From the NCBI GenBank assembly GCA_946480595.1, contig CAMLKC010000001.1:1-51945 (forward strand): a DNA stretch of 51,945 nucleotides. Direction: 5' to 3'. Positions 19,208-49,944 of this stretch are shown here, piece after piece. A model generated the notes under the pieces. The model saw nothing but the letters and a program-made list of their open reading frames with translations. It had not been told where the DNA came from and did no database searches. Positions within the stretch are counted from its first letter, which is position 1. The number at the start of each line of letters is the position of its first letter. The translations under genes and the position numbers were made by a program. The stretch comes from an uncultured Candidatus Saccharibacteria bacterium (GTDB taxonomy: Bacteria > Patescibacteria > Saccharimonadia > Saccharimonadales > CAMLKC01).

Positions 19208-19237
19208 TTGACATTTTGACAGGTTGTCTGTTACACT
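19208..19237 (+). promoter_or_regulatory. Promoter of rplJ-rplL
   Basis: TTGACA (19208-19213), an 18-nt spacer and TACACT (19232-19237). Confidence 0.75.
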
Positions 19238-19243
19238 ACATGC

Positions 19244-19352
19244 AGACATTGCCAGAGACAGTAGCGGTGAAACCCACTTAATAAGCTACCGAGGAATGAA
19301 ATAAACATTCGAGTCAAGTCTTTGGTAATGCGAGAATCAAAGACTTTTTCTT
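19244..19352 (+). promoter_or_regulatory. Ribosomal protein L10 leader with terminator
   Basis: The 5' leader contains AGAGACAGTAGC ... GCTACCGAGG, closing a GTAGC/GCTAC stem with an internal TTAATAA. This is the characteristic L10-leader (r-protein autoregulation) sequence that binds the L10-L7/L12 complex. It is followed by an intrinsic terminator AAGTCTTTG/CAAAGACTT and TTTCTTTT (19316-19352). Excess L10 should favour termination, before the rplJ start at 19428. Confidence 0.8.
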
Positions 19353-19427
19353 TTGGAAAAATCGGCGAAACTCTCATTACCGTACGTTGACAATTCGGTC
19401 GGAAAAACAACTAAAGAAAGGACTTTT

Positions 19428-46737: not shown

Positions 46738-46812
46738 TGGGGTGTCGCCAAGTGGTAAGGCACATGGTTTTGGTCCATGCATTCGGGGGTTCGAATCCCT
46801 CCACCCCAGCCA
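46738..46812 (+). tRNA. trnQ: tRNA-Gln (anticodon TTG)
   Basis: The acceptor arm TGGGGTG (46738-46744) pairs with CACCCCA (46802-46808). Discriminator G and an encoded CCA end at 46812. The anticodon loop TTTTGGT between CATGG and CCATG gives anticodon TTG, reading CAA. The T arm is GGGGGTTCGAATCCCTC. A TGGTAGAAT extended -10 box lies at 46719-46727. Confidence 0.95.
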
Positions 46813-46916: not shown

Positions 46917-46925
46917 TGGTATAAT
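46917..46925 (+). promoter_or_regulatory. Extended -10 promoter of repeat copy 1
   Basis: TGGTATAAT ends 8 nt before the first base of the 98-bp repeat, so transcription should begin at its edge. Confidence 0.65.
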
Positions 46926-46933
46926 AGTATAGC

Positions 46934-47031
46934 GCAAGTGCTGCAAAGCCCTGCGTCGCACAGTCAAGCTGATGCATGACATTGTCACTGCCGGAGTAAT
47001 CCTGCTGGCGATGACGGTCAAACTTGAACTG
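46934..47031 (+). repeat. 98-bp direct repeat, copy 1 (structured RNA candidate)
   Basis: Identical to 47216-47313. Potential pairing: CAGTCAAG (46961-46968) with CTTGAACTG (47023-47031), enclosing GTCACTGCC/GGCGATGAC (46984-46992 with 47007-47015, one mismatch and one G-U) and an inner GGA/TCC. The 5' third can form TGC-T-GC/GC-GTC-GCA. Position behind a promoter and upstream of an RT suggests a template or guide RNA. Confidence 0.9.
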
Positions 47032-47124
47032 ACGCTCACCCTTGAGCCACAGGTTGCCGGCAGTTTTGCTAAATCCCAAGGAGTAACCATTAAGAGTACT
47101 AAGGAGCACAAGGGGGACATAGCG

Positions 47125-47367
47125 GTGAACTTTTCACAACAGAATAGCGAGCGCGAGGAGGGGCAACCCGACGAGCGCCCCACAGACCAGGAAAATATGT
47201 TACAATATATACATAGCAAGTGCTGCAAAGCCCTGCGTCGCACAGTCAAGCTGATGCATGACATTGTCACTGCCGGAGTAATCCTGCTGGCGATGACGGT
47301 CAAACTTGAACTGCCCTCACTCGATCACTGCTCTAGGAAATTGCGTCCTAGCCTTGGGAGTCAATAG
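47125..47367 (+). CDS. Possible small protein upstream of the RT
   Basis: GTG 47125 has an AGGGGGA ribosome site. The 80-residue frame runs through repeat copy 2 and its TAG overlaps the RT's GTG start (TAGTG). The first 28 residues are hydrophilic (NFSQQNSEREEGQPDERPTD). The repeat part reads KCCKALRRTVKLMHDIVTAG then a hydrophobic VILLAMTVKLEL. The same frame is open back to 46933 through copy 1. It may be a genuine accessory protein or just an open stretch in an RNA gene. Confidence 0.35.
   Translation: MNFSQQNSEREEGQPDERPTDQENMLQYIHSKCCKALRRTVKLMHDIVTAGVILLAMTVKLELPSLDHCSRKLRPSLGSQ
47198..47206 (+). promoter_or_regulatory. Extended -10 promoter of repeat copy 2
   Basis: TGTTACAAT ends 9 nt before copy 2, the same geometry as copy 1. 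Confidence 0.55.
47216..47313 (+). repeat. 98-bp direct repeat, copy 2 (structured RNA candidate)
   Basis: Exact copy of 46934-47031, at a distance of 282 bp (94 codons). It ends 53 bp before the RT start codon. The bases after both copies differ, apart from a shared CTCAC. Confidence 0.9.
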
Positions 47368-48659
47368 TGAACCTTCTTGCTGAAATATCCAAACGCGACA
47401 CTTTAGTGAAAGCATGGAAAGGCCTTACGAAGAGGCCTTTTTCCTATGGTCTAGATGAGATCACGATAGAGAGTTTTCGGTACGGCTTAGACGGACATTT
47501 AGAGGAAATTCAAAAACAGCTACATTATGGCAGCTATAAGTTTTACGCCTTACGCCTCTACTTGTCGGCAAAAAAAGACGGAGGCTATCGTCCTATTAAA
47601 ATTCCGAGTGTGAGAGATAGGGTCGTACAAAAAGCGATTGCGGATACCATTTTCCTCCACTTAGATAAAAAGTACGATTTAGCAAATAAAGCTAGCTACG
47701 CATATCTGCCGGGCAAGAAAATCCAAGATGCATCAAGCGAGATTCTAAAGTGGCGCGCCGAAGGTTATAAATATGTCTGCAAAGCAGACATCAAAAAATT
47801 CTTTGAAAACATTAATAAAGATGCGTTACTTAAGCTAGTATTCGACGCACTGCCCGATAATTCATTAAACACAATTATCGAAGCGGCTGTCCGCAATGAT
47901 ATCGAATCCGGTGACTATATGTATTATGAGCGCATGACAGGCAAGTCTTTCGTATATGATCAAATAGCAGGCATTGCGCAAGGTAGCCCGCTTTCGCCAA
48001 TGTTCGCTAATCTTTACCTTTGGTCGTTTGATAAGTACATGAACGACAAAGGATTTATCATGATTCGTTATGCGGATGATATGTTGTTTCTATGTAAGAC
48101 TATGCCTGATGCGGAGGCGCAGTATAGGTTAGCTGATTCCTTCTTACGAAAAATTGGTTTGGAATTGTATCCGCTCAGAAGTGATATACCAGGAGAACTG
48201 TGGAAAAAAGATGGTAAATACTCCTACGTCAGGACTTTGGAGAACCTTGAATTCTTAGGACTAAGATTCTCAAGCGGCAAGGTTTATCCAGCCAATTCCG
48301 CATATAAGAAAGTTATGAAGGAAATACGAGGAGTCGCATATAGCACATCCGTGTCGCTGGTGAAGAAAATGAATTCAATTAACTCAAGAATTCAAGGCTG
48401 GTCTAGCGCCTTCTCATATACAACGGAAGAAGGTTTACGTCTCGACGCTCTCGATACTAAACTTGAAGATGTATTGACGCGAACGCTTAAGATCCATGGG
48501 CTGAAGAAAGTGGACAATAGGGCTACGATAAAAATATTTGGATTTCCATCTTTTAAGGAATCGTCTTCGTATGCTCGATTGTCACCGGAGGAAAAAGTAA
48601 AAAGAAAAAGTAGCAAGAGGATAAGGCAAAACAAAGACAAAAAAACCTTAGAGAAATAG
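47367..48659 (+). CDS. Reverse transcriptase (group II-like or unassigned class)
   Basis: A 430-residue RT. Motifs: RT1 IPSVRDRVVQKAIAD (79-93), RT3 VCKADIKKFFENIN with catalytic Asp141, RT4 GIAQGSPLSPMFANLYL (202-218), RT5 IRYADDMLFL (233-242, catalytic YADD), RT6-7 LENLEFLGLRF. A thumb-like segment follows (SINSRIQGWSSAFSY) and then a basic tail. QGSPLSP excludes the usual diversity-generating type; the retron VTG motif and an intron endonuclease are absent. It is preceded by two identical structured repeats. GTG start behind GGGAG. Codon use is more A/T-rich than in the core genes, consistent with recent acquisition. Possible role in phage defence. Confidence 0.9.
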   Translation: MNLLAEISKRDTLVKAWKGLTKRPFSYGLDEITIESFRYGLDGHLEEIQKQLHYGSYKFYALRLYLSAKKDGGYRPIKIPSVRDRVVQKAIADTIFLHLDKKYDLANKASYAYLPGKKIQDASSEILKWRAEGYKYVCKADIKKFFENINKDALLKLVFDALPDNSLNTIIEAAVRNDIESGDYMYYERMTGKSFVYDQIAGIAQGSPLSPMFANLYLWSFDKYMNDKGFIMIRYADDMLFLCKTMPDAEAQYRLADSFLRKIGLELYPLRSDIPGELWKKDGKYSYVRTLENLEFLGLRFSSGKVYPANSAYKKVMKEIRGVAYSTSVSLVKKMNSINSRIQGWSSAFSYTTEEGLRLDALDTKLEDVLTRTLKIHGLKKVDNRATIKIFGFPSFKESSSYARLSPEEKVKRKSSKRIRQNKDKKTLEK

Positions 48660-48791: not shown

Positions 48792-49256
48792 CTAAAGCTT
48801 TAAACCGAGCTGACTGATTGCGCTGTTTGAACCGTAGAAGAATGAATCGCCAGACTCTAGAGCTTTACGCCATGCGGTTACAACCTCGCCTCTGTCCATC
48901 TTCATCGACTCAAACCACGCCGGATGAGAGACTGGATTCGCATAGGTAGTACTACCCCAAGTAGCAATTTCGTATAGGATAGGTACGGCGTTGATGCCGA
49001 TGGGTGTAAGTTTATAGATAGTCTTCCGCTTGTCTACTGGGTCCTGCGTTTTGGAAATAATTCCTTTATTCTCTAGGTGGTTTAACCGATCAGCTAGCAC
49101 GCTTGAGCCAATACGCTCCTCACACTCCTGAAGCTCACTAAAAGTCTTTTTGCCGAGAGTTGCCATATCTCGATAAATAACCATTGACCAAGTATCTCCG
49201 AATATTTCTACGGTGTAGTTTATTGGGCAATCCGATTTGTGATCTGCTCGTTTCAT
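48792..49256 (-). CDS. HxlR family transcriptional regulator with C-terminal extension
   Basis: A 154-residue regulator. The HxlR core is CPINYTVEIFGDTWSMVIYR, TFSELQECEERIGSSVLADR, IYKLTPIGINAVPILYEIAT. About 45 extra residues follow, including SHPAWFESMKMDRGEVVTAW. ATG 49256 is chosen because the -10 box ends 6 nt upstream, and the core starts there; the longer open frame reads through the divergent promoter. It probably represses itself and the divergent 49342 operon by binding the two palindromes between them. Confidence 0.88.
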   Translation of the reverse strand: MKRADHKSDCPINYTVEIFGDTWSMVIYRDMATLGKKTFSELQECEERIGSSVLADRLNHLENKGIISKTQDPVDKRKTIYKLTPIGINAVPILYEIATWGSTTYANPVSHPAWFESMKMDRGEVVTAWRKALESGDSFFYGSNSAISQLGLKL

Positions 49257-49262
49257 AATTTT

Positions 49263-49291
49263 AGTATAACATACTTGACTTTGATAATCAA
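49263..49291 (-). promoter_or_regulatory. Leaderless promoter of the HxlR gene
   Basis: Minus strand: TTGATT (49286-49291), a 17-nt spacer and TATACT (49263-49268). The -35 lies inside the first operator. Confidence 0.7.
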
Positions 49292-49304
49292 AGTAAGTTA
49301 TGCT
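49275..49304 (+). promoter_or_regulatory. Promoter of the 49342 operon
   Basis: TTGACT (49275-49280), an 18-nt spacer and TATGCT (49299-49304). The spacer is covered by the first operator. Confidence 0.6.
49278..49294 (+). promoter_or_regulatory. Operator palindrome 1
   Basis: ACTTTGAT-A-ATCAAAGT, a perfect 17-bp palindrome overlapping both divergent promoters. Confidence 0.7.
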
Positions 49305-49314
49305 ATACACTGCT

Positions 49315-49331
49315 ACTTTGATTATCAAACT
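49315..49331 (+). promoter_or_regulatory. Operator palindrome 2
   Basis: ACTTTGAT-T-ATCAAACT, near-identical to operator 1. The centre-to-centre distance is 37 bp, between the transcript start and the 49342 ATG. Confidence 0.7.
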
Positions 49332-49341
49332 AAAATAAGAA

Positions 49342-49944
49342 ATGAAATACATGAGAAAAATAATTGTACTATCGATGATTACCCTGGACGGCGTGATGCA
49401 GGGCATGGGTGGCCCCGAAGAAGATCCATCAGGAGATTTTAAATACGGGGGCTGGAGCGCGCCATACGATGATGCGGTCCTTCGCGAAACTATGCCCAAG
49501 TGGCTGAAGTCTTCGGATCTTCTTTTGGGTAAAAAGACGTTCGAGATCTTCTCTTCCGTCTGGCCTCAGCGAGAAACTATATGGCCAGGCATCAACGACG
49601 TGACAAAATATGTCGTGAGTAGCACGGTGAAAAAATCGGACTGGAAAAATTCCGTTTTTCTTGAAGATGTAGAAGCGGTTAAGAAGCTTAAAGGATCAGA
49701 AGGTTCTGATCTTCAGGTTTGGGGTAGCAGCAACCTCATTAAATCACTGCTTGAGCACGACTTAGTAGATGAGCTGTGGCTACAAATTCACCCATTAATA
49801 CTTGGTTCGGGTAAAAAGCTGTTTTCCGAAGGGTCAATTGCGACTGCGTTTACTCTAACAGAAAGTACTGTCACTCCAAGTGGTGTTATCGTGGTTAATT
49901 ATAAACGCGCTGGAGAGATTAAGACTGGCACCGTTGGTGTATAG
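49342..49944 (+). CDS. Dihydrofolate reductase-like (RibD C-terminal family) protein
   Basis: A 200-residue protein of the RibD-C/DHFR-like fold common near HxlR regulators. Visible: KIIVLSMITLDGVMQGMGGP at the N-terminus, LLLGKKTFEIFSSVWP, LQVWGSSNLIKSLLEHDLVD and LHPLILGSGKKLF-type end (LQIHPLILGSGKKLFSEGS). It likely binds NADPH; the substrate is unknown. In-frame ATG 49351 could be the true start. First gene of a likely three-gene operon controlled by the divergent regulator. Confidence 0.88.
   Translation: MKYMRKIIVLSMITLDGVMQGMGGPEEDPSGDFKYGGWSAPYDDAVLRETMPKWLKSSDLLLGKKTFEIFSSVWPQRETIWPGINDVTKYVVSSTVKKSDWKNSVFLEDVEAVKKLKGSEGSDLQVWGSSNLIKSLLEHDLVDELWLQIHPLILGSGKKLFSEGSIATAFTLTESTVTPSGVIVVNYKRAGEIKTGTVGV

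Follow-up and report, generated by a model that had tools for sequence, protein, structure and literature searches.

Retroviral RNA carries an identical R region at its 5′ end and again downstream, which is the basis of strand transfer, and RNase H frees the nascent cDNA from its template, as is needed for transfer from R to R. Among bacterial reverse transcriptases (RTs), VTG is the retron motif and QGxxxSQ that of DGR enzymes, the template and variable repeats of DGRs differing at adenines; DRT2 is characterised by concatemeric cDNA made on a looped ncRNA. The closest described systems are DRT2, which jumps over a 3-nt match with the same outcome as that proposed below (PMC11100668, PMC12039810), DRT10 (UG17), which jumps over 4 nt (PMC12632851), and the G2L4 RT, a strand-annealing enzyme with YIDD instead of YADD (PMC12337344), whose published role is break repair.

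Here we describe an RT of an uncultured Candidatus Saccharibacteria bacterium that is preceded by two long identical repeats; the window is the whole stretch of 51,945 nt analysed (contig CAMLKC010000001.1), and labels such as L001 denote loci of RT relatives. The best reading of the comparisons is a system with an outcome akin to that of DRT2. As DRT2 is described (PMC11100668, PMC12039810), the likeness lies in a putative RNA upstream of the RT, a stop-free repeat unit with a length divisible by three (here in the window, L001, L167 and L002), a promoter and ribosome site within the repeated unit, and a small protein. The differences lie in the RT lineage (the window RT scores 58.1 bits with the NCBIfam Drt2 model, for which the cut-off is 390), in the template edges, which are long identical repeats here but a 3-nt ACA motif in DRT2, and in the frame, which runs in the RNA sense here, whereas the DRT2 promoter motifs are reported in the reverse-complement sense. 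DRT10 shares the A-B-A′ template logic, but A is 4 nt there and 98 nt here, and its RT has YVDD in place of YADD. PADLOC assigned the window RT 207.7 bits with its generic RT model and 146.8 bits with UG17, the second-best model, which has no stated cut-off; no SLATT gene was found among seven ORFs around the RT, repeat frame included, that were scanned with Pfam. The retroviral R region is resembled in the position of the repeat at the predicted RNA 5′ end and downstream, and in the RNase H fusion of one sublineage; unlike in retroviruses, the repeats do not enclose the RT gene, no integrase is seen as part of the system, and there is one locus per genome (7 genomes).

Features of the locus

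The features discussed below are as follows, R1 and R2 being the first and second repeat and R the repeat sequence.

46917..46925, + strand: extended −10 promoter TGGTATAAT of R1, by direct reading; TATAAT stands upstream of R1 also in L167 and L002
46934..47031, + strand: R1, where the template RNA probably has its 5′ end, from reading, repeat search and box spacing in Bacteroidota
47032..47215, + strand: spacer, which continues in frame after R1 and then holds the ribosome site, the start codon and the first, N-terminal codons of the following turn
47110..47127, + strand: ribosome-binding site AAGGGGG with the in-frame start codon GTG (VNFSQQ...)
47198..47206, + strand: extended −10 promoter TGTTACAAT before R2, within the open frame
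47216..47313, + strand: R2, identical to R1, from repeat search
46933..47367, + strand: stop-free frame across R1 and R2, with a 94-codon unit that would become endless on joining of R2 to the sequence downstream of R1
47333..47351, + strand: small hairpin CTAGG...CCTAG between R2 and the RT, from a fold of this stretch of the window
47367..48659, + strand: RT, 430 aa, YADD, group II-like, of a sister lineage of the G2L4 RTs

The repeat search returned R1 and R2 exactly as an earlier note on this DNA had described them, identical at 98 of 98 bases with a start-to-start period of 282 bp, and the first 30 nt of R (up to 3 mismatches) occur nowhere else in the window (shuffle mean 0.00). Both extended −10 boxes that the note had placed 8–9 nt before the repeats are there, TGGTATAAT stopping 8 nt short of R1 and TGTTACAAT 9 nt short of R2; a sigma-70 scan of the window, which requires a −35 hexamer, did not list them. 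R2 ends 53 bp before the RT, which is intact, starts with GTG at 47367, and carries QGSPLSP and YADD; by reading, neither VTG nor QGxxxSQ was found in it, in agreement with the earlier description.

Several known types of element were considered and rejected. A retron is contradicted by the score with the retron model St85 (71.6 bits, cut-off 235) together with the missing VTG, and a DGR by the QGSPLSP motif, the 100% identity of the copies and the presence of no more than two copies in any of 4 genomes of relatives. A group II intron was discarded on the maturase model (199.1 bits, cut-off 300) and on the Rfam gathering scan of the window, in which no intron RNA appeared and only a tRNA and an L10 leader were listed; a CRISPR array was discarded because there are two copies only, and a mobile retrotransposon because there is one RT match per genome (7 genomes), R has two copies (4 genomes), and the RT lies outside the repeats.

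The repeat pair is tied to one clade of RTs

A protein search of 5.8 billion sequences with the window RT gave 96 relatives at E 0.001; DNA was taken from the best 80 loci each of a genome-contig scan and a viral-contig scan, and further loci from whole-genome searches and from plasmid and phage records. The RT is sporadic, occurring in 3 of 392 genomes drawn from the class (E 1e-25) and in 3 of 93 in one family (E 1e-35). When the upstream stretches of 158 RTs, each of at most 1.1 kb, were scanned for repeat pairs with a score threshold of 35, a single near-identical pair was found in 25 of the 34 loci of one RT clade, which spans Saccharibacteria, Bacteroidota, Chloroflexi and Proteobacteria. 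The claim that the RT is tied to a conserved upstream repeated RNA is thereby borne out, and the search for relatives without a repeat, on which the earlier note had staked it, speaks in its favour. The 25 pairs are 97–100% alike and 76–153 bp long (that of L001 is cut by the contig), have periods of 270–485 bp and end 48–83 bp before the RT; although this arrangement is kept, the repeats of distant clade loci are unrelated in sequence. As a control, the 1.1 kb downstream of the same RTs held a pair scoring at least 35 in 1 of 141 windows.

Upstream, that score was reached in 77 of the 158 loci: the 25 clade loci, L039 with a decayed pair (41 of 42 bases alike), L070, in which the RT is partial and a 55-bp pair adjoins N, and the arrays L015, L048 and L054; the other 47 are viral loci in the range from L097 to L160. 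We take the repeats of these viral loci to be DGR template and variable repeats; they are about 77–94% alike, frequently number more than two, and for the most part lie at a greater distance from the RT.

In a tree of 94 RTs, which omits viral loci L097–L159 and RTs under 300 aa, 22 of the 25 twin loci fall in one clade of 31 (SH-aLRT 90), within which the window RT nests with the Saccharibacteria-type loci and all 31 members keep YADD, YIDD or FIDD; L173, L174 and L176, close relatives that have the pair and stand outside the tree, bring the clade to 34 and the pairs to 25. The 63 tree rows outside the clade show no single pair of this kind, the upstream stretches of L026, L032, L068 and L069 among them being too short to test. 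Clade loci with no clear pair include L017, L064 and L080, whose contigs are cut in the region, and L027, which has an N gap; L004, L024, L079 and L168 have a single repeat copy. A second tree (57 RTs and PDB chain 9d5x) placed the clade on its own side of a branch supported at 97/90 and present in 98% of 200 bootstrap trees. The solved G2L4 RT (9d5x) itself falls in the twin-repeat clade and is 86% identical to the twin-repeat member L011, whereas the window RT, with YADD in place of the YIDD that G2L4 shares with the Pseudomonas relatives, lies in the sister half, outside the branch holding 9d5x. The earlier view that the RT is neither retron nor DGR holds; its kinship with the G2L4 RT had been missed in the note. 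A text search for repeats in the two G2L4 papers found nothing, and among the papers listed from a collection that lacks most subscription titles, no entry points to RT-linked twin repeats of this kind, so that an earlier description may exist.

In four Pseudomonas loci, the two copies within a locus differ from each other at 0, 0, 0 and 2 of 130 nt, while R differs between loci at 1–9. R has exactly two copies in each of the 4 genomes searched, and matches of the RT type of the window number one per genome in 7 genomes. The pair is kept on two complete plasmids and on two contigs of about 7 Mb (L173, L174); one plasmid, H14 (L178), is the record examined among the 20 listed of at least 5000 that matched the window RT, and the other (L177) is the one record matching the L031 RT at E 1e-50. 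Among 9 phage records matching the window RT, the one examined (L179) has no pair, and the L031 RT matched no phage record at E 1e-30.

Three local variations of the arrangement were also observed. In L024 (4656–4965) and L027 (4750–4965, with two N), the R1-side flank is joined via one R to the flank behind R2, the unit having been either lost or collapsed in assembly. The Pseudomonas spacer in L031 (4522–4731) contains an internal duplication of about 103 bp, 73–74% alike, which may account for the period of 485 as against 376–379, and upstream of R2 in L176 there is a degenerate third copy of the coding part of the repeat (MAKAIEKAEHDGWDYLPLLYLTLGL).

Position of the RNA start

A TAnnTTTG box ends 6–12 nt before R1 in all six Bacteroidota loci (L003, L005–L008, L176) and occurs within 45 nt before R2 in none of them, against a background of 35 in 1234 windows. 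Because this box precedes R1 only, the repeated block seems to begin at the RNA start, and R1 and R2 look like the two ends of one template. The proposal of the earlier note that each repeat starts its own near-identical RNA does not survive this comparison (6/6 at R1 versus 0/6 at R2), and two separate 98-nt RNAs were rejected on the same ground. Pre-R1 boxes read TATAAT in the three Saccharibacteria-type loci where they are readable, and the distance from TATAAT to R1 is 8 nt in the window, 5 in L002, 13 in L012 and 36 in L167. The boxes before R2 read TACAAT (window), TACTAT (L001), TAAAAT (L167) and TACAAT (L002), so that all four loci have TGnTAnnAT without TATAAT at this position; all lie within the open frame, and TATAAT in that phase would give an in-frame TAA stop. 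In Proteobacteria a clear promoter rule was not seen.

Coding capacity of the repeated unit

The stop-free frame that the earlier note had drawn from 46933 to the RT start is present, crossing both repeats and ending in a stop (47365–47367) that overlaps the RT start (TAGTG). Coding had been set aside there on the ground that 98 is not divisible by three; the relevant unit, however, is the 282-bp period, equal to 94 codons, and the accompanying hunch of kinship with defence RTs whose cDNA repeats encode protein is judged right. The periods of the Saccharibacteria-type loci are all multiples of three (window 282, L001 309, L167 270, L002 273), and in 4 of 4 the unit closed into a circle is stop-free in one sense frame, as were 37, 11, 134 and 22 of 2000 shuffled units, respectively; the units of L178 and L028 likewise lack a stop all the way round, as did 15 and 338 of their 2000 shuffles. 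An antisense frame was rejected because, although open in the window, it contains stops in L001, L167 and L002. The same four loci have a Shine–Dalgarno-like site with an in-frame start in the spacer, namely AAGGGGG-GTG (window), AAGGGAGG-GTG (L001), GGGAGG-TTG (L167) and GAGGAGG-ATG (L002), and the first three of these frames open with (V/V/L)NFSQQ. From the GTG at 47125 through R2 to the stop at 47365, the genome already holds a complete 80-codon gene.

The ratio pN/pS in R was 0.47 between the window and L001, with a third-position excess, and 0.64–0.99 in the other eight comparisons, and over the whole unit it was 0.57–2.17 in 14 pairs. Since only 4 of the 14 pairs, none Saccharibacterial, have a lower pN/pS in the ORF frame than in either of the other two frames, the substitution pattern does not prove coding, and pN/pS failed as a general proof of it; the coding case in Saccharibacteria, which we regard as good, rests on the open frame, the start sites and the period. 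Across the clade, the unit has a stop or a period not divisible by three in 19 of the 25 twin loci. In Bacteroidota, where the coding evidence is moderate, R holds its own start and a stretch like TVTCRFGLSITVE lies behind R1, in frame with the repeat in L005–L008 and in another frame in L003; R1 with the sequence downstream forms a complete ORF in L005–L008 too. The G2L4 half contains 12 Proteobacterial twin loci, and in 8 of these the start (MQKRA.. or MQKHASR..) stands before R2 and the downstream part behind R1, so that joining would be needed to make the gene whole. Here the coding evidence is weak, and the frame could be an RNA motif, because just 2 of 12 loci have an open length over R greater than that of 95% of shuffles, and close Pseudomonas pairs show no purifying selection on the joined frame. 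A conserved ATGCAAAAACGTGCC stretch in Pseudomonas may also be an RNA motif, as the L039 version is one A shorter. Mean hydropathy of the best hydrophobic 19-mer ranges from 1.04 to 2.21 in 23 units, of which 8 beat 95% of residue shuffles, weakly suggesting that the unit encodes a small membrane protein.

Folding of the repeat and the hairpin before the RT

The repeat had been described as structured, but R of the window alone folds with a z of −1.36, equalled by 20 of 200 shuffles, and the outer stem CAGTCAAG/CTTGAACTG proposed for it is absent from the minimum-energy fold. A hairpin is seen between R2 and the RT. In 12 rows, selected by eye among the 19 Proteobacterial loci that belong to the G2L4 half (L014, L060, L072, L079, L080, L173 and L174 were left out), it has a five-pair stem with 93% of cells paired and 6 cells, in three pairs, changed on both sides; the covariation score was reached by 0 of 500 shuffles, and the number of pairs changed on both sides by 44 of 500. 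Analogous hairpins were noted by eye between R2 and the RT in Saccharibacteria and Bacteroidota. It is likely that this hairpin serves as an RT-binding or priming element.

Predicted mechanism and alternatives

The conserved architecture, its confinement to one RT clade, the Bacteroidota promoter box at the R1 edge and the open in-frame unit are read from the sequences themselves. In the mechanism that we propose on this basis, an RNA starting at R1 would run through the spacer and R2 into the RT mRNA, and the RT would begin copying near the end of R2 or at the hairpin behind it, proceeding over R2, the spacer and R1 up to the RNA 5′ end. The R1 copy at the cDNA 3′ end would then re-anneal to R2, as in R-region strand transfer, and repeated copying would yield head-to-tail 282-nt units or a circle. 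Each turn of the Saccharibacterial product would carry, besides the stop-free frame, its own promoter, ribosome site and start codon, so that the joined units would express a never-ending small membrane protein. By analogy to DRT2, this protein would bring the cell to arrest, most probably when a phage infects; the role in phage defence is a guess. That R-to-R strand transfer makes concatemeric or circular DNA with a never-ending small membrane-protein gene is, in our estimate, an evenly balanced proposition. It would account for R1 beginning at the RNA start and R2 ending at a hairpin just before the RT, for the identity of the copies, for the use of a strand-annealing RT and the acquisition of RNase H, and for the multiple-of-three period in the lineage with the endless frame. 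The RNase H domain (PF00075, E 1e-21 to 3e-27) is fused to the RT in L014, L017, L044, L058, L064 and L073, that is, in 6 of the 8 Alphaproteobacterial members scanned, L060 and L072 being without it. What counts against the proposed transfer is that ordinary gene conversion of close direct repeats could keep the copies identical, that the genome contains a complete 80-codon gene, that the pN/pS signal is weak and 19 of 25 units have a stop or an unsuitable period, that the conserved downstream peptide of L003 is out of frame with the repeat, and that four clade loci have a single repeat.

The same joined frame would also result if R1 and R2 recombined at the DNA level, through single-strand annealing by the host or with help from the RT; the unit would then leave as a circle bearing the joined gene, and one repeat would remain before the RT. 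The single-repeat loci L004, L024, L079 and L168 are what such an event would leave, and the G2L4 RT performs microhomology-mediated end joining (PMC12337344). These loci are, however, all on draft contigs or metagenome bins in which repeats may have collapsed, the contigs L001, L017, L064 and L080 begin in the repeat region, plasmids L177 and L178 and the ~7 Mb contigs L173 and L174 keep the pair, and the L031 spacer was absent from the L024 and L027 genomes in a search that had no positive control. Recombination, which moreover leaves R1 beginning at the RNA start unexplained, appears unlikely to us. Also unlikely is an RT bound to a structured repeat RNA in the manner of retrons or DRT9/DRT10, copying a short template while the second repeat serves dosage or folding: DRT2, DRT9 and DRT10 all use ncRNA, R1–spacer–R2 can be seen as a long version of the A-B-A′ template of DRT10 (PMC12632851), and R is conserved at synonymous sites in Pseudomonas, but the absence of a promoter box at R2 in Bacteroidota speaks against it and the multiple-of-three period is left unexplained. 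Folding is divided on this point, as 18 of 20 repeats fold better than the shuffle mean and 8 have a z of −2 or lower, whereas the other 12, that of the window included, lie above −2.

Plain regulation is suggested by the complete ORF that overlaps the RT at 47125–47367, and by the one formed by R1 and its downstream sequence in L005–L008: a small membrane-protein gene would be coupled to the RT, with its 5′ part duplicated and homogenised by gene conversion, and the RT would act elsewhere, e.g., in the double-strand break repair proposed for G2L4, for which repair data are published (PMC12337344). The joined frame without purifying selection in close Pseudomonas pairs is in keeping with this. 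Regulation alone, however, would not maintain a near-perfect pair with unchanged spacing to the RT across phyla with unrelated repeats, nor a never-ending frame with a start codon between the repeats, and we consider it improbable.

Returning to strand transfer, we tentatively extend it, with less confidence than for the Saccharibacterial case, to the whole clade including the G2L4 RTs, which may form one gene-synthesis system working by retrovirus-like R-to-R transfer: a permuted gene, starting before R2 and with the C-terminal half placed behind R1, would become whole only in RT-made DNA, and the break repair by G2L4 would be a side effect of the annealing that serves transfer. If true, a group of bacterial RTs would work with long repeats at the ends of the template RNA, a logic known from retroviruses. 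Genes found solely in reverse-transcribed form would then have arisen by a further, independent route, and the well-studied G2L4 RT would gain a native substrate. The RNase H-fused Alphaproteobacterial RTs, relatives of the Pseudomonas G2L4 RTs, mostly give weak maturase-domain matches.

Genomic neighbourhood

The neighbours of the RT in the window (a TFIIB-type zinc ribbon, tRNA-Gln, HxlR and RibD_C) are uninformative on its role. Those of relatives are compatible with defence islands: PADLOC found an IetS-like gene near the RT of L031 and a protein near that of L007 like PD-T4-6, a kinase family; L008 has an AAA ATPase, and plasmid L177 has recombinase, TIR and integrase genes near the RT. 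Of 10 chosen neighbours submitted to PADLOC, 3 matched, one of them weakly (L002), and 7, including the L177 TIR gene, had no match. In L031 (6522–10081), the IetS-like gene and a further neighbour adjoin the G2L4-type RT as a candidate defence island. A tRNA-Gln lies directly upstream of the system in the window (46738–46809) and in L168 (1560–1633), a tRNA-Ala near it in L167 and a tRNA-Ser in L177; such sites are possible insertion hotspots, and an island at the tRNA edge was rejected for the window, in which there is no second copy of the tRNA end. Elsewhere in the window, a ribosomal protein L10 leader is located at 19234–19359 (RF00557, E 9e-8), and at 48792–49944 an HxlR-type regulator is divergent from a gene with a RibD_C domain, a 24-bp inverted repeat lying between the two (49272–49337).
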